Positions 9,650 to 21,494 of a stretch of DNA of 64,000 bases are shown here, in pieces. The position numbers and the translations under genes are program-made. The stretch covers positions 1-64,000 of the forward strand of contig JAAEOK010000052.1 of the NCBI GenBank assembly GCA_024244705.1, given 5' to 3'. The stretch's first letter is position 1. Every line of letters begins with the position of its first letter. This stretch comes from Alphaproteobacteria bacterium. GTDB lineage: Bacteria > Pseudomonadota > Alphaproteobacteria > JAAEOK01. A model generated the notes under the pieces. That model worked only from the letters and a program-made list of their open reading frames with translations, had not been told where the DNA came from and ran no database searches.

Positions 9650-10096
9650 CTATTGGACCCGCGGCACGCCACGGCAGGGGCCCGCCGCTTGGAGCTCGGT
9701 CAGGGTCATCGCGCCGTCGCCGTCGGCATCGACCCGACGCAGAAATGCCAGCCGCACCGCGAAGATTTCCGCCATCGTCACGGCGCCGTCGTTGTCCGCA
9801 TCGAGCCTGACGAAACGCCGCTCTGCACGGTCGCCCTGGCGCCCTTGGCCGGCAGCCGAGAATTCGTCCGCGGACAGCACGCCGTCGCCATTGGTGTCGG
9901 CCCGCTGCACAAGCGTCAGGCGAACCTGCATCATCTCGTCTTCGGTGACGCGCCCGTCCCGGTTCGCGTCCATGCGGTCGAAATGCTTGGCCGCCCTGGC
10001 ACCGTCGCAGCCGCCGGGCGGGTCGGCGCTCTGGCCGGCGGCGGGTGGGATGGAGACGGCGAGAATTGATAGGAATACGAGGATGCGGACGGTCAC
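9650..10096 (-). CDS. Secreted EF-hand calcium-binding protein
   Basis: A 148-residue protein with an N-terminal signal peptide (hydrophobic to about residue 21, likely cut after AAGQ or nearby) followed by four EF-hand loops: DANRDGRVTEDE, DTNGDGVLSADE, DADNDGAVTMAE and DADGDGAMTLTE. All four keep Asp at positions 1, 3 and 5 or close equivalents and Glu at 12, so all should bind calcium. Loops are paired 1-2 and 3-4 as in calmodulin. It is probably a periplasmic calcium buffer or sensor. It stands alone, divergent from tRNA-Thr. Confidence 0.88.
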   Translation of the reverse strand: MTVRILVFLSILAVSIPPAAGQSADPPGGCDGARAAKHFDRMDANRDGRVTEDEMMQVRLTLVQRADTNGDGVLSADEFSAAGQGRQGDRAERRFVRLDADNDGAVTMAEIFAVRLAFLRRVDADGDGAMTLTELQAAGPCRGVPRVQ

Positions 10097-11688: not shown

Positions 11689-12726
11689 TCAGGAGTTGCG
11701 CCGGTGTTCGGGATGGAGGCTCCGCCCCAATATGTGCTCGTTCTTACGGATCACATCGAGGCCCGACCCGACGATCAGTGGGTCCGGCGGACGCACCACA
11801 TCCTCGTTCTTTTCCGGATAGGGCAATGAGTGGAGGAAATGCATCATGCAATTCAGGCGTGCCCGTTTCTTGTCGTCCGACTTGATGATCGTCCACGGTG
11901 CGTCGGCGGTGTCGGTGTAGAAGAACATCGCCTCCTTCGCTTCCGAGTAGTCGTCCCATTTGTTGAGCGATTCGCGGTCGATCGGCGACAGCTTCCATTT
12001 CTTTAGCGGTTCGTGCTCGCGCGCCTTGAATCGCCGCAGCTGCTCTTTGCGAGTCACCGAGAACCAGTATTTGAACAAACGGATGCCGCTCCGCACCATC
12101 ATTCGTTCGATCTCCGGCGCCTGGCGCATGAACTCGAGGTACTCGTTGGGCGTGCAGAAACCCATGACCCGCTCGACGCCGGCGCGGTTGTACCAGGAAC
12201 GGTCGAAAAAGACGATCTCGCCACCGGCGGGGAAATGGCGAATGTAGCGCTGGAAGAACCATTGCGCCCGCTCCCTCTCGGTCGGCTTATCGAGCGCCGC
12301 GACGCGCGCGCCACGAGGATTCAGGTGCTCCGTGAAGCGTTTGATCGTCCCCCCCTTGCCGGCCGCGTCGCGGCCTTCAAACAGCATGACGATCCTTTGA
12401 CCCGTCTCGCGGACCCAATCCTGAACCTTGACCAGCTCGACCTGCAGCTGAGCCTTGTGCTTCTCGTAGTCTTTTCGGCTAACCTTCTGCTTGTAGGGAT
12501 ATTCACCGGTCTCGAACATCCGGCGTATCGTGTCCGGATCGCGTGCCGGTTCCGCCGGACTGGGAGCCTCGATCGGCGGAGCTTCGGCGATCTCGCGTGC
12601 GCCGGTGTCCCTTGGGCCGGCGCCGGCGGCACTATCCGGCACTTCCGGCGCGGTCGCTCCGCTGCCGTCGACTGCACCGTTTGGGCTTTCGACCTTCAAG
12701 CTCTGGACGTTGCGCGGGCTCGCCAT
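11689..12726 (-). CDS. ppk2: Polyphosphate kinase 2 (PPK2 family)
   Basis: Polyphosphate-dependent nucleotide kinase (or the reverse, GDP/ADP to GTP/ATP from polyphosphate), cytoplasmic. After a 60-residue Ala/Pro-rich, probably disordered N-terminus comes the P-loop FEGRDAAGKGGTIKRFTEHL, then the lid/Walker B segment EIVFFDRSWYNRAGVERVMG and the conserved FKYWFSVTRKEQLRRF. 345 residues, slightly long because of the N-terminal tail. Single-domain, so class I (NDP-phosphorylating) is likeliest, though the class is an inference. Confidence 0.93.
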   Translation of the reverse strand: MASPRNVQSLKVESPNGAVDGSGATAPEVPDSAAGAGPRDTGAREIAEAPPIEAPSPAEPARDPDTIRRMFETGEYPYKQKVSRKDYEKHKAQLQVELVKVQDWVRETGQRIVMLFEGRDAAGKGGTIKRFTEHLNPRGARVAALDKPTERERAQWFFQRYIRHFPAGGEIVFFDRSWYNRAGVERVMGFCTPNEYLEFMRQAPEIERMMVRSGIRLFKYWFSVTRKEQLRRFKAREHEPLKKWKLSPIDRESLNKWDDYSEAKEAMFFYTDTADAPWTIIKSDDKKRARLNCMMHFLHSLPYPEKNEDVVRPPDPLIVGSGLDVIRKNEHILGRSLHPEHRRNS

Positions 12727-12892: not shown

Positions 12893-13352
12893 GGCCGGCG
12901 AGGCCCCATTGGACAGACCGCGGCCCCGCTCCTACTCTTTGCCGCGATGAGCCCGGTGGACGACGAACCAGTCAGACCAGTCGCGGTTGCCGCGATCAGC
13001 CGTCTTTGCGCGCGGGCGGCACAGGCGCGGGAGGCCGGCCGGCTCGAGGCGGCACGCAATCTGCTCACCCAGGCGAGCGCGGCGGCCCGCATACAAACCG
13101 CGGCGCGGCACGAGGTCGCCGTCAATTTCAACAATCTGGCGGCCGCCTACGCCACCGTCCAACGGCACGACGATGCGATCGAGTTGCTCCGGGCGGCGCT
13201 TGCCGTCGTTCCCGAATATGCCCTGGCCCATGCCAACCTCGCCGACCTGCTGAAGCGCCAGGGCCGCACCGACGCTGGTTCTCCGAGAAAGTCGTCAGCC
13301 TGCCCCGCTGCTACCAGGTCAGCGACCCCGGCCAGGAGATCGACGATTCGCC
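12893..13352 (+). repeat. Direct repeat copy A: truncated duplicate of the TPR-GT41 gene and its upstream region
   Basis: From 12893 to 13277 this matches 14596-14980 at a constant offset of 1,703 bp with scattered substitutions. From about 13273 to 13352 it matches 15778-15857 (offset 2,505). The two matches meet at the shared pentamer CGCTG, so copy A equals copy B minus 802 bp. It includes 54 bp upstream of the start codon. Confidence 0.92.
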
Positions 13353-13369
13353 AAACCGGTGCGAGGTAG
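12947..13369 (+). pseudogene. Truncated, frameshifted copy of the TPR-GT41 gene
   Basis: The ATG at 12947 corresponds to the ATG at 14650 of the intact gene, and about 108 codons (two TPR repeats, e.g. AIELLRAALAVVPEYALAHA) are nearly identical. The 802-bp deletion then joins GRTDA to the out-of-frame equivalent of RWFSEKVVSLPRC (802 is not a multiple of 3), giving a nonsense tail of about 30 residues. Homology ends at 13352. The catalytic glycosyltransferase domain is gone; at most a TPR-only peptide could be made. Confidence 0.88.
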
Positions 13370-13488
13370 TCCGGTTAACTGACTCACACCGTGCTGGCTG
13401 GAAGACTAGACTGGCAATGCGAATTCCACGAAAATCGATATCATCTGGGGAATGTCGGCTAAGCAGTCATCAGCTGAGGAAATGGGGC

Positions 13489-14538
13489 ATGTCGAAACAG
13501 CGGCCGAGTAGCCGAAAGATCTCCCGGCGCCAAGTAGTCAAGATTTCAGCGGGGTTGGCTGCCGGGGCCATTATTGGGGCGCCGGCGATCGTCCGTTCGC
13601 AACAGGCGAAAAGGTTTTTTAAGCCAATTGTCGTCGGGCTGAACGGGAAGGAAGGCGATCCGTCCCACGTCTCCGTCTCACGCATCCCGGAGATCCTGCG
13701 TAAGAAGTATGACGTCGAGATGGACTTCCACATCTACACTATGTCGACGGTAGGCACTGATGTCTATCAGCTCGAGGCGGTACAGACCGGCTTCATCGAC
13801 ATCACCTCGCACGCGACGCCGCAGTTCAGCCTGTTCTCCGACAAGTTCTCGTTTGTTGACCTGCCTTATGCCATTACCGACTGGGACATGGCGCTGCGGC
13901 TGTTCAAGTCCGACTTGTGGAAGAAGCAGGCGGCGGGGTTCGAATCCGAAGTGCCGGTAAAGGTGCTGCCGCCGGTCGGTGCCGGTGGTTTCCGCCTCTT
14001 GTGGAACAATATCCGCGCGCTACCGGCGCCAGACGCGGTCGACGGTCTGAAGTTCCGCACGCTCCGCTCACCGTTGTCGATCGCACTGATCCAAAACTGG
14101 GGCGGCATCCCGACGCCGCTGCCGTGGACGGAGACATTCCAGGCCTTGAAGGTCGACGTCGTCGACGGCATTCACGTGCAGCCAATCTGGACTTTCCAGT
14201 TCGATATGCACGAGGTGCTGAAATACGCGACCGAGGTCAACGCGATCTTCTCCGTCCTGTTCCAAGTCATGAACATCAATACGTTCAACGCCATGCCGGA
14301 GTCGATGCGCGAGGTGTTCATGTTGGCCGCCCAGGAGGCCGCTTACGAAGCCACCGAGCAAGACCGTAGGCTCGAAAACTTTTACAAGAGAGCACTCACC
14401 AAGGCCGGCATGGAGATCTACACGCCGACGGCCGCAGAGGCGAACCAATGGACCGTCCTTGGCGAGGCCGTCTGGGAGACCGAAGGCAAGGACGTCGACC
14501 GCGGCGTGCTCAACGAATTGATGGCGCTGCGCGCCTAG
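13489..14538 (+). CDS. TRAP transporter substrate-binding protein (DctP family), Tat signal, orphan
   Basis: 349 residues from the ATG at 13489. The N-terminus SRRQVVKISAGLAAGA is a twin-arginine signal, with cleavage likely before QQAKRFF. The mature protein has the DctP fold: the Arg that binds substrate carboxylate is probably in KFRTLRSPL, followed by the QNWGGIPTPLPWTETFQAL segment and the family's VDGIHVQP. Substrates are usually organic acids. No DctQ/DctM membrane genes are near, so it either serves a distant TRAP permease or is a relic. It lies between the two copies of a duplicated segment and probably arrived with, or was trapped by, that duplication. Confidence 0.87.
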   Translation: MSKQRPSSRKISRRQVVKISAGLAAGAIIGAPAIVRSQQAKRFFKPIVVGLNGKEGDPSHVSVSRIPEILRKKYDVEMDFHIYTMSTVGTDVYQLEAVQTGFIDITSHATPQFSLFSDKFSFVDLPYAITDWDMALRLFKSDLWKKQAAGFESEVPVKVLPPVGAGGFRLLWNNIRALPAPDAVDGLKFRTLRSPLSIALIQNWGGIPTPLPWTETFQALKVDVVDGIHVQPIWTFQFDMHEVLKYATEVNAIFSVLFQVMNINTFNAMPESMREVFMLAAQEAAYEATEQDRRLENFYKRALTKAGMEIYTPTAAEANQWTVLGEAVWETEGKDVDRGVLNELMALRA

Positions 14539-14595
14539 CGTCGCCCTGGCCGCCTTCACGTGTGTCGGCCTGATTAGGCGGCTGGATGCGGTCGG

Positions 14596-14980
14596 GCCGG
14601 CGAGGTCCCCATTGGACAGACAGCGGCCCCGCTCCTACTCTTTGCCGCGATGAGCCCGGTGGACGACGAACCAGTCAGGCCAGTCGCGGTTGCCGCGATC
14701 AGCCGTCTTTGCGCACGAGCGGCACAGGCGCGGGAGGCCGGCCGGCTCGAGGCGGCACGCGATCTGCTCACCCAGGCGAGCGCGGCGGCCCGCATACAAA
14801 CCGCGGCGCGGCACGAGGTCGCCGTAAATATTAATAATCTGGCGGCCGCTTACGCCACCGCCCAACGGCACGACGACGCGATCGAGTTGCTCCGGGCGGC
14901 GCTTACCCTTGTTCCCGAATATGCCCTGGCCCATGCCAACCTCGCCGACCTGCTGAAGAGCCAGGGCCGCACCGACGCTG
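14596..14980 (+). repeat. Direct repeat copy B (5' part), in the intact TPR-GT41 gene
   Basis: Partner of 12893-13277. The second matching block, 15778-15857, lies 802 bp further on. Differences are mostly single substitutions, with one cluster around 14823-14838 where copy B is more AT-rich than copy A. Confidence 0.9.
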
Positions 14981-16524
14981 CGTTGGGCCATCTCCGCCGG
15001 ATCGAGGAAATCACAGGGCAATCGGCCGATAATCTCATTGCCCAGGGCAAGGCGCTCCAGCGGCTTGATCGCGTCGTCGAGGCGCGCGGCTGCTTCGAGG
15101 CCGCGCTCGATCTCGACCCAGGCCATGTCGGCGCCCTCGACGGCGGCCTCTATGCCCGGCTCAGCCTGGCGGACTGGACCGGCATTGGGGTGGATACCAA
15201 GCGGTTGATTGAGCTCTTCCGACTCCAATCCGAACCGCCACCATCCCACCTCATTGCCCCGTTCCATTCCCTGCTGTTGGACATTGCCGAGGAAGACCGG
15301 CTGCGGATCGCTCGAGCGTGGTCGCTGCAATTCCCGGCGGCAGGATCGCCGAGGCCCCATACGCCACACCCGGGACCGTTACGCATTGGCTATTTGTCGG
15401 GCGATTTTCGGCGCCATGCCACGGCTTACCTGATGCAGTCCCTGTTCGCCGCGCACGACCGGACCCGGGTCCGGGTTCATGCCTACGCGACGGGAACCGA
15501 CGACGGCAGCGTCGAACGCCGGAAGATCGCCGCCGATTGCGACCGCTTCGTCGACCTGCACCGCTTGAGCGATGAAGAGGCGGCCCGCGCGATTGCGGCG
15601 GATGAAATCGATATCGTTGTCGACCTGATGGGATATTCCGGGTCGGCGCGGCCCGGCATCCTTGCCCGACGGCCGGCGCCGCTCCAGGTTTCGTACCTGG
15701 TCTACCCCGGCACGACGGGTGCCGCCTGGATCGATTACATCATCGCCGATCCGGTGGTGCTACCGCCGGCGAACCGGCGCTGGTTTTCCGAGAAAGTCGT
15801 CAGCCTGCCCCGCTGCTTCCAGGTCAGCGACCCCGGCCAGGAGATCGACGATTCGCCGACACTGCGCGGCGAGTGGGGACTACCCGACGATGTCTTCGTC
15901 TTCGCCTGCTTCAATATCGCCCACAAGATCGAGCCCAAGGTCTTTGGCCTGTGGATGGAGATCCTCCGCGAAGTACCGCGATCGGTCCTTTGGTTGCTCG
16001 CAGACAGCGATACCGTCACGGCCAACCTGCGCGCCGCCGCCGCGAGTGCCGAAGTCGATCCGGCGCGGCTCCTCTTTGCCAAGCGGGTCTGCCGTCCGCG
16101 GCATTTGCGGCGGCAACAATACGCCGACCTGTTCCTCGACACCCTGATCTGCAATGCCCATACCACGGCCAGCGATGCGCTGTTCGTCGGCCTGCCGCTG
16201 CTCACCGTCGCCGGACCGTCGTTCGCCGGCCGGGTCGCGGCCAGTCTGTTGACAACGCTTGGCGTCGAGGAGTTGATCGCCGCCGACGGCGCGGGCTACC
16301 GCGAGACCGCGATCGCGCTTGCGCGAGATCCGGACAGGCTCGCTCAATTGCGCGGCCGGATCGTCGGCGCTGCCGGGACCGGCCCGCTCTTCGATGTCGG
16401 ACATTTCGCCGGCGCGATCGAAAGCGCGTTCGAGTTGATCTGGGAAAACCACAGCGTCGGCAATACGCCTCGCCACATCGACGTGCCGCCATTCGCCCCG
16501 TCAAACGGGGCCAAACGGCCTTGA
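14650..16524 (+). CDS. TPR-repeat O-GlcNAc transferase-like glycosyltransferase (GT41/SPINDLY type)
   Basis: A 624-residue protein in two parts. Residues 1-150 are TPR helices (AIELLRAAL, LAHANLADLL, ALQRLDRVVEARGCFEAAL). Residues about 240-610 are a GT41 catalytic region: LRIGYLSGDFRRHATA, VDLMGYSGSARPGILARRPA, YPGTTGAAWIDYIIADPVV, FNIAHKIEPKVF and the donor-binding DTLICNAHTTASDALFVG. By family knowledge it transfers a sugar from a UDP donor to Ser/Thr of protein, with the TPRs choosing the target. Cytoplasmic; no signal or membrane segment. The Cys-rich gene at 16605 follows in the same direction. Confidence 0.88.
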   Translation: MSPVDDEPVRPVAVAAISRLCARAAQAREAGRLEAARDLLTQASAAARIQTAARHEVAVNINNLAAAYATAQRHDDAIELLRAALTLVPEYALAHANLADLLKSQGRTDAALGHLRRIEEITGQSADNLIAQGKALQRLDRVVEARGCFEAALDLDPGHVGALDGGLYARLSLADWTGIGVDTKRLIELFRLQSEPPPSHLIAPFHSLLLDIAEEDRLRIARAWSLQFPAAGSPRPHTPHPGPLRIGYLSGDFRRHATAYLMQSLFAAHDRTRVRVHAYATGTDDGSVERRKIAADCDRFVDLHRLSDEEAARAIAADEIDIVVDLMGYSGSARPGILARRPAPLQVSYLVYPGTTGAAWIDYIIADPVVLPPANRRWFSEKVVSLPRCFQVSDPGQEIDDSPTLRGEWGLPDDVFVFACFNIAHKIEPKVFGLWMEILREVPRSVLWLLADSDTVTANLRAAAASAEVDPARLLFAKRVCRPRHLRRQQYADLFLDTLICNAHTTASDALFVGLPLLTVAGPSFAGRVAASLLTTLGVEELIAADGAGYRETAIALARDPDRLAQLRGRIVGAAGTGPLFDVGHFAGAIESAFELIWENHSVGNTPRHIDVPPFAPSNGAKRP

Positions 16525-16604: not shown

Positions 16605-17432
16605 ATGTCGCGATTGCTGGACGAGATCAGGACGCCGGAGGCTCGGGCCGAGCCGGCACGCAAGGATTACGCGGTTTCGGCGCGGCCGTTTCATGCCGAT
16701 ACGGTGTTCACGATTTCCGCCCGCAGCAAGCCGCCGGAGCAGCCGGTGCTGCGCTTCTTGGCCAAGAACTACGCCACCGTGCCGATCGCCCAGATCGACA
16801 GCCTGTTCGGATTCGTCGAGGGCAGCACGCTCTATGGTGGCCGCGTCTTCAACCAGCCCGAGCTTTACGAGCGCGATGTTGCGGTGATGTACGATGTCGG
16901 CATCGGCGTCCGCATCCCGCTGACCAACCATTTCGCCGAAGAACCCGAATACGAGGAAAACCTGGCCTTCCTCGACAAGTATCATCGCCCGGGCAATGCC
17001 GCAATCGTCACCAATGACAAGCTCGCGGAGTGGATCCGGCGTGACTTCCCGAAATACAGAATCGAGGCCAGTGTCATCAAGAACATCGACACCCAGGCGA
17101 AAATAGACGCCGCGCTCGAGATCTACGATACCGTCGTGCTGCCGATGGAACTCTGCGAGCAGCCGGAATTTCTCGAAAAACTGGAAAACAAACAACGGAT
17201 CACGCTGTTCGCCAACGCCGGATGCGCCCTGACCTGCCCGGCTCGGATCTGCTACGTGTCGGTATCGAAGATCAACAAGGGCCGCAACGATACCCAATGG
17301 CGCTGCTCGCAGCCGATCAAGGACCGCGATACGCGCGGCATGGTCGATTTCGACCTCGAACACTTGTCCGACCTCGGCTTCCGGCGCTTCAAGCTGCTGC
17401 GCTCGCGGCCCGGCGGCAAGACCGGCGTGTAA
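16605..17432 (+). CDS. Conserved Cys-cluster protein of unknown function (U32 peptidase-like features)
   Basis: 275 residues from the ATG at 16605, preceded by GGAGGGGAAG; I do not recognise a named family. The middle and C-terminal parts read like a TIM-barrel protein (VIKNIDTQAKIDAALEIYDTVVLP), then a Cys cluster C207-x3-C211-x4-C216 with a further C234 and an upstream C184, enough for an iron-sulfur cluster. The NAGCALTCPARICY segment recalls the Cys-rich part of U32 proteases and the UbiU/UbiV type, but the spacing is not theirs. It lies 80 bp downstream of the GT41 gene. A role in modifying or hydroxylating the glycosylation target or sugar is possible but not shown. Confidence 0.6.
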   Translation: MSRLLDEIRTPEARAEPARKDYAVSARPFHADTVFTISARSKPPEQPVLRFLAKNYATVPIAQIDSLFGFVEGSTLYGGRVFNQPELYERDVAVMYDVGIGVRIPLTNHFAEEPEYEENLAFLDKYHRPGNAAIVTNDKLAEWIRRDFPKYRIEASVIKNIDTQAKIDAALEIYDTVVLPMELCEQPEFLEKLENKQRITLFANAGCALTCPARICYVSVSKINKGRNDTQWRCSQPIKDRDTRGMVDFDLEHLSDLGFRRFKLLRSRPGGKTGV

Positions 17433-19885: not shown

Positions 19886-20039
19886 GGCGAAACTCCCTTG
19901 GCAATTTCCCATTGGCAATCGGCAAGCCTGGAATGGTACCAAGTACCGCCCCAGGGGCGCACGTCAATAAAGGACCGTTCAAGAGTTGGAGCCGCCGTCC
20001 GCAGTATCTCGTCAACCCGGTTTTCCCCAAGCGGAGCCG

Positions 20040-21494
20040 ATGCAGCAGAAACAGATTTCCATTCCCGAGGCGCTCAAGCTGGCAAAAAAACTCCTGGCCA
20101 ACAATCAGATTGGCAAGGCGGCGCAGATATTGGGAGAGGTCACCCAACGCCAACCCAGCTTGGTCGAGGCGCAACAGCTCTATGCCACCGCCTTGATGCA
20201 GATCGACCGTGCCGAAGATGCGGAGCCGGCCCTGCGGCGGGCGCTCAATGCCGCGCCCGACCATGTCGGGCTGCTCAACACGCTCGGACTATGCCTGGTC
20301 CTGCTCGGCCGTCTCGATGAGGCGCGCGACCTGCTGCAGCGGGTCGAAACGCTGGTCCCGAGCAATCCGCTGGTCCATCGCAATCTCGGGCTCCTGCACT
20401 ATTACGGGCACGACTACGAGGATGCCGAAAAGGCGTTCCGGCGCACGCTTCGCCTCGAGGCCGGCTTCGTCTCTGCGCTTCACAATCTCGGAAATGTGCT
20501 CGAGGCCACCGCCCGCTTCGATGAGGCGATCGAAATATATGATCGTGCCCTGCGCCATGCGCCGAAGGACCCCGAAATGCGTTTCGATCGCGGGCTCTGC
20601 TATCTCCGCGCCCGCGACTACGAACGCGGCTTCGCCGACTACGAGGCGCGTCTGAACCGCCGCGACCAGCGCGCGCGGCACCAGCGATTCAAGCCACCGT
20701 TGTGGGACGGCGGTGATTTCGCGGGCAAAACGCTGATCGTTTACGGCGAGCAAGGCTTCGGCGACATTATCCAGTGCGCGCGTTATTTGCCGGGGATCAA
20801 GGAGCGCGGCGGCACCATAATCTTTTATGCGCCGCAACAGATCAAGAGGTTGCTTGAAACCGTCGCCGGGGTCGACCGGGTCGTGACGCCCGACGAAGAA
20901 ATGCCGGCGGCGGACCTTAAGGTCCCGGTGTTCAGCTTGCCCGGTCTGTTCGAGACCCGGTGGCCGGACATACCGGCCAAGGTCCCCTATGTGTCCGCAG
21001 CGCCTCGGGACACCTCCCCGCTCGACGGCGACGGCCTGAAGGTCGGACTGGTGTGGGCCGGCAGCAAGATCTTCAAGGGCGACTACACCCGATCGATGCG
21101 TCTCGAATATCTTGCGCCGCTGCTCGACGTTCCGGGCGTCAGTTACTTCAATCTTCAGTTCGGCGAGTCGACGGCGGGCTTCGACGATCGGATTCACGAC
21201 CTCGGGGACGAAACGCTTGGCGATTTCTATCAGACCGGCGGCATCATTGAGCAACTCGACCTGCTGATATCCGTCGACACCGTCACGGTTCACCTCGCCG
21301 GAGCGTTGGACCGGCCGGTGTGGGCGATGCTGGCTTACGCCTGCGATTGGCGCTGGGGCGCCGACGGCGACCGCTCCCCCTGGTATCCCAGCGTCCGCCT
21401 CTATCGCCAGCCCGAGCCAAAACAATGGGACGCGGTGGTCGCCCGGATCGCCGATGACCTCACCGCCTTGGCCACTGAAAGGGCGACATCGTGA
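20040..21494 (+). CDS. TPR protein with C-terminal GT9-like glycosyltransferase domain
   Basis: 484 residues from the ATG at 20040. Residues 1-210 are six or so TPR units (LNTLGLCLVLLGRLDEARDL, ALHNLGNVLEATARFDEAIE, KDPEMRFDRGLCYLRARDYE). Residues about 230-480 resemble heptosyltransferase-type (GT9/GT-B) domains: LIVYGEQGFGDIIQCARYLP, LKVGLVWAGSK, and the signature DLLISVDTVTVHLAGALDRP followed by the WRWG and WYPSVRLYRQ motifs. Such TPR-GT9 proteins are common in Alphaproteobacteria, with unknown acceptors. Cytoplasmic. Together with the TPR-GT41 gene it suggests protein or surface-glycan glycosylation. Confidence 0.85.
   Translation: MQQKQISIPEALKLAKKLLANNQIGKAAQILGEVTQRQPSLVEAQQLYATALMQIDRAEDAEPALRRALNAAPDHVGLLNTLGLCLVLLGRLDEARDLLQRVETLVPSNPLVHRNLGLLHYYGHDYEDAEKAFRRTLRLEAGFVSALHNLGNVLEATARFDEAIEIYDRALRHAPKDPEMRFDRGLCYLRARDYERGFADYEARLNRRDQRARHQRFKPPLWDGGDFAGKTLIVYGEQGFGDIIQCARYLPGIKERGGTIIFYAPQQIKRLLETVAGVDRVVTPDEEMPAADLKVPVFSLPGLFETRWPDIPAKVPYVSAAPRDTSPLDGDGLKVGLVWAGSKIFKGDYTRSMRLEYLAPLLDVPGVSYFNLQFGESTAGFDDRIHDLGDETLGDFYQTGGIIEQLDLLISVDTVTVHLAGALDRPVWAMLAYACDWRWGADGDRSPWYPSVRLYRQPEPKQWDAVVARIADDLTALATERATS

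Follow-up and report, generated by a model that had tools for sequence, protein, structure and literature searches.

A putative IS1380-family gene-capture remnant with an orphan dctP gene between a truncated and an intact TPR-GT41 gene

Insertion sequences of the IS1380 family can take along DNA that adjoins their 3′ end by means of a downstream repeat-like sequence, which gives rise to transposable modules, and the elements bear outward promoters (PMC9330008). A single copy of ISEcp1 (ISEc9) is sufficient to mobilise downstream genes, the far ends of such units match in as few as 3-12 bases, and target duplications in the family measure 4-5 bp (PMC12116815). The cargo of ISEcp1 includes beta-lactamase genes, and ISPme1 is another element that forms such modules (PMC9330008; PMC12116815). 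Modules can also be reduced to the outward end of the element, as in the case of blaOXA-232, before which ~200 bp of ISEcp1 are left (PMC9330008). IS1380 modules have been studied mostly for the spread of resistance genes. Scars left by such modules beside metabolic genes of wild bacteria would reveal how widely capture extends to ordinary genes; they would also account for some of the orphan solute-binding proteins and some of the broken gene copies.

The locus described here lies in the window, i.e., the analysed stretch of 64 kb at the start of contig C52 (128 kb), which belongs to an alphaproteobacterial genome of 4.5 Mb in 127 contigs (96.7% complete, 4.4% estimated contamination). As in the ISEcp1 (ISEc9) and ISPme1 modules, a terminal repeat of the family stands directly upstream of an unrelated gene that runs in the same direction. 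Unlike in those modules, the cargo is a TRAP solute-binding protein gene and not a resistance gene, neither transposase nor left end nor target duplication survives, and the right end is only a candidate. The locus would be a single, degraded case of a known type of gene-capture unit, unusual in its cargo. On balance, it is probably what remains of an IS1380-family gene capture after recombination of GT41 alleles and a microhomology deletion had reshaped it. Its features and flanking genes are the following (window positions, strand in brackets):

11689..12726 (-): PPK2 polyphosphate kinase gene (PF03976, 3e-106), divergent neighbour of the locus
12893..13277 (+): truncated TPR-GT41 5′ copy (leader from 12893, ATG at 12947, first ~110 codons)
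13273..13277 (+): deletion junction CGCTG, common to the parental sites 14976-14980 and 15778-15782
13278..13352 (+): later GT41 block, equivalent to 15783-15857 and in a different frame from the 5′ part
13353..13458 (+): AT-rich spacer sequence, interpreted as what is left of the 3′ part of an IS1380-family element, with similarity only at ~13418-13458
13442..13458 (+): IS1380-family terminal inverted repeat CATCTGGGGAATGTCGG, exact in loci of three other genomes
13489..14538 (+): orphan dctP, TRAP solute-binding protein of 349 aa (PF03480, 2e-46; NF037995 over cut-off)
14579..14595 (+): weak candidate for the right end of the captured unit (10 of 17 bases as in the IS end), where the second GT41 copy starts
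14650..16524 (+): intact TPR-GT41 glycosyltransferase gene, 624 aa (PF13844, 1e-92, and TPR models of Pfam)
16608..17432 (+): downstream gene of no matched family (no Pfam match)

The surviving IS end belongs to the spacer that separates dctP from the GT41 fragment (13353-13488), which has a G+C content of 52% compared to 64% for the window. When 385 genomes of the class were searched at the DNA level, matches to spacer positions 66-110 came up in three other genomes (best E-value per genome 1.2e-6). At locus L071, the matching 21 bp sit 185 bp behind an intact IS1380-family transposase gene (NF033539, 403 bits), on whose far side a perfect 13-bp inverted mate of the repeat is found; at locus L074, the end comes after a transposase remnant of 50 aa, which is 94% identical to the L071 transposase. 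About 40 bp of the end recur at 83-87% identity in four solo ends from two genomes, and three more solo ends have 64-237 bp in common with L074 or with one another. The ends of annotated, plasmid-borne copies of ISKpn23 (TACTTGGGGAATGTGGG) and IS1247 (TACTTGGGAAATGTGGG) are of the same type: they agree with the end at the locus in 12-14 of 17 bases, i.e., this is not the same element, and in comparison to them only the last ~40-106 bp are left here. Within the window, 13442-13458 is the sole site with three or fewer mismatches to CATCTGGGGAATGTCGG, and a weight matrix gives it 24 bits compared to 14.5 for the next site, a lead that is somewhat inflated by the inclusion of the identical L071 end in the matrix. 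Judged by its sequence, 13442-13458 is a terminal repeat of the IS1380 family, a feature absent from the original prediction for this DNA. The orientation set by L071 and L074 puts the lost transposase on the side of the GT41 fragment, pointing towards dctP. A tblastn search with the L071 transposase found no IS1380 transposase left in the window, and what is preserved is therefore a remnant, not an element. A left end and a target duplication were likewise not found at the locus, where a single IS end remains, followed by the bases CTAA. The candidate far end at 14579-14595 is not supported by the weight matrix, on which it ranks only 5208 of 127,968. Two other readings of the spacer were rejected: its end is not a conserved protein C-terminus (HLGNVG), since conservation holds at the level of single bases and an inverted mate is present on the far side of the transposase gene; nor is the spacer the upstream region of dctP relatives, to which it bears no similarity.

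Solo IS1380 ends without an intact transposase were seen in L072 (498-539), L073 (4238-4276), L074 (534-573) and L075 (4104-4143), the one in L073 directly upstream of a gene for an SsuA-type-like binding protein. These solo ends are possible further scars of gene capture. The same 17-mer also occurs in a viral contig (L076, 2861-2877) with no recognisable IS1380 flank, by chance or as another solo end.

The probably foreign gene that adjoins the 3′ end of the IS, as in a transposable module, is dctP: its ATG lies 30 bp past the IS end, the gene has the position and reading direction that such a unit would predict, and a GAGG ribosome site precedes the ATG at 9 nt. The product resembles DctP-type TRAP binding proteins (PF03480, NF037995) in its full-length domain and its twin-arginine-type signal (SRRQVVK), and the closest solved chain is 4n8g_A. 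The gene stands apart from the relatives examined in that no dctM lies beside it, and thus no complete TRAP transporter is encoded at the locus. The original prediction had described a dctP-like gene without permease between the copies, and DctM is indeed absent within 70 kb, the nearest DctM gene on the contig being at C52:88454-90052; the other DctM genes of the genome lie elsewhere, and the best of them is 39% identical to the permease of the dctP relatives. In those relatives, dctP belongs to dctP-dctQ-dctM operons at both loci examined, one of which has three dctP genes; no convincing IS1380 ends were found near these operons. Three clusters of family f30 (L061-L063) contain two or three diverged dctP genes with one or two dctM each, and several binding proteins may serve one permease there.

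The nearest sampled kin of dctP, at 58-62% identity, come from one other family. At E<=1e-60, relatives turned up in only 3 of the 384 other genomes of the class, each of them from this family, and 7 of 10 family members had one. At E<=1e-50, none of 397 other genomes sampled from the phylum contained a relative. MurA identities of 60-65% do not single the family out as particularly close to the genome studied here. The narrow distribution, the missing permease and the nearest kin in another family support dctP as an incoming gene, and a transfer into this genome is likely. However, such a transfer would be old, because identity does not exceed 62%, codon usage is ordinary (0.278, compared to 0.167-0.378 in 12 neighbours) and the tree gave the gene no firm position inside the other family. 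Foreign composition was considered for dctP and rejected, as GC3 and codon usage are both ordinary.

The intact copy of the flanking gene is like bacterial TPR-GT41 (O-GlcNAc-transferase-like) glycosyltransferases, with a GT41 domain (PF13844, over cut-off) and TPR repeats, whereas the upstream copy retains only TPR repeats, over ~110 codons, before a frameshift. Repeat search and alignment gave 96% identity between 12893-13277 and 14595-14980, a shared segment that comprises ~54 nt before the ATG and codons 1-110 and whose single indel, of 1 base, falls in the leader; the homology of the intact gene to the truncated copy begins at 14595. The later block, 13273-13352 (80 bp with CGCTG), corresponds to 15778-15857; over the 75 bases beyond the join, the two differ at 2 positions. 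The spacings of the two blocks, 1703 and 2505, differ by exactly the 802 bp that are missing, and since 802 mod 3 is 1, the join is out of frame. The pentamer CGCTG is present at the join and at both parental sites, and five or more bases are common to two random breakpoints in the GT41 gene in 1.1% of draws. The 802-bp loss as a microhomology deletion at CGCTG is therefore supported, with a coincidence expected about 1% of the time. A partial TPR-GT41 duplication with an exact 802-bp deletion, an out-of-frame join at CGCTG and a microhomology-mediated loss had all been put forward in the original prediction: the coordinates hold to the base, and the alignment of 12893-13352 with 14596-15857 confirms that the copies are related, at 96% in the 5′ part.

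No further occurrence of the GT41 copies was found in the 4.5-Mb genome. The search for a single-copy locus in a relative yielded no GT41 gene of more than 46% identity in 40 other genomes of the class and a contig scan, and viral contigs contained no close relative of GT41 or dctP. The genome holds at least eight other GT41-like genes (contigs C42, C52, C3, C50, C77 and C112), at most 54% identical to the intact gene, with two at 53-54%. Another TPR gene lies in the window at 19986-21494.

The comparable codons of the two GT41 copies contain 17 differences, 10 synonymous and 7 non-synonymous, compared to ~5 and ~12 expected from random mutation (P ~0.013, a moderate value from a small test). 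Because the differences are mostly synonymous, the copies presumably diverged largely while both were working, as strain alleles or as paralogues. The two resolvable amino-acid changes, at codons 86 and 390, are assigned to the branch of the intact copy, because the truncated copy has the residue of the closest relative in the genome and of several others. The truncation would therefore seem to be younger than the divergence of the copies, as far as a small test with a moderate P can tell. The synonymous bias is in line with recombination involving DNA of a different strain and speaks against a simple duplication of recent date.

Capture, allele recombination and deletion, in the following order, could account for what is observed, namely the two copies and their junction, the IS end, and an orphan dctP whose kin are linked to permeases. 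An IS1380 element carrying dctP behind its 3′ end would have brought this gene beside the TPR-GT41 gene. Recombination of two non-identical GT41 alleles or copies would then have produced the order partial GT41, IS, dctP, intact GT41; in the simplest case, an IS inside one GT41 allele would have recombined with an IS-dctP module before another, which would give the order in one step. Most of the IS would then have been lost in later deletions, one of which, at CGCTG, would have cost the first copy 802 bp. For the step behind the partial GT41 duplication, we infer this route as the simplest one. Against capture speak the single surviving IS end, the weakness of the candidate far end and the ordinary codon usage of dctP, and an IS insertion beside an already resident dctP would look identical; likewise, a single crossover with a circle, or old tandem paralogues followed by a later IS, would give an identical order.

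The crossover with a circle corresponds to the vehicle named in the original prediction, insertion of a circular or integrative piece: a circle with the 5′ part of GT41 (~1.3 kb) and dctP would have integrated by one Campbell-type crossover in GT41, which would leave a 3′-truncated copy, the insert and a whole copy, with the 802-bp deletion at CGCTG to follow. The order of the parts and the 5′ completeness of both GT41 copies agree with such an integration, as does their allele-like, mostly synonymous divergence. However, dctP and the IS end are all that lies between the copies, with no gene for replication, integration or conjugation, and the plasmids of the collection contain neither a close dctP (all matches below 60% identity) nor a match to the spacer. 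An incoming dctP is thus supported, while the IS1380 end that abuts the gene points to capture by an insertion sequence, a different or at least a more specific vehicle than the one proposed; nothing observed requires homologous integration of a circle, which we regard as unlikely.

Rather unlikely, too, is an origin from old tandem GT41 paralogues that were both working, beside or within the first of which an IS1380 element landed, with dctP resident or added later and the first copy cut back. The synonymous-biased divergence, the changes on the branch of the intact copy and the presence of several GT41 genes in the genome would agree with such a history, but the 3′ part of a first copy has left no trace, and with identities of at most 54%, the other GT41 genes do not stem from a recent expansion of this kind. 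An assembly chimera that joins the versions of the locus from two strains is improbable: a draft genome in 127 contigs with 4.44% estimated contamination, a strain-like copy divergence of 4% and exact stretches of 64, 56 and 48 bp common to the copies, within which an assembler might have switched, would allow for it, but it is unlikely at the three joins (13273, with 5 bases, 13352/13353 and 14595), which share far less than a usual assembly k-mer, and the IS end supplies a biological reason for the rearrangement.

If the locus is indeed a remnant of IS1380-family capture, there might be consequences for the intact GT41 gene. It starts 111 bp behind dctP and is separated from the leader on the ppk2 side; co-transcription with dctP is therefore possible, and the two genes may form one transcript. 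A more far-reaching and rather doubtful suggestion is that an IS1380 module moved a nutrient-binding gene between alphaproteobacterial families and thereby placed a TPR-GT41 gene under transcription from the module. If true, this would be a natural case of the capture machinery acting outside resistance and rewiring surface or protein glycosylation.

Elsewhere in the window, a small secreted-looking protein with EF-hand motifs is encoded beside murA (9650-10096, -). At the start of the contig, a phage-type integrase gene (PF00589; 45-929, +) adjoins a tRNA-Phe gene (951-1026, -), and this region is possibly the edge of an integrated element that is cut by the contig end.
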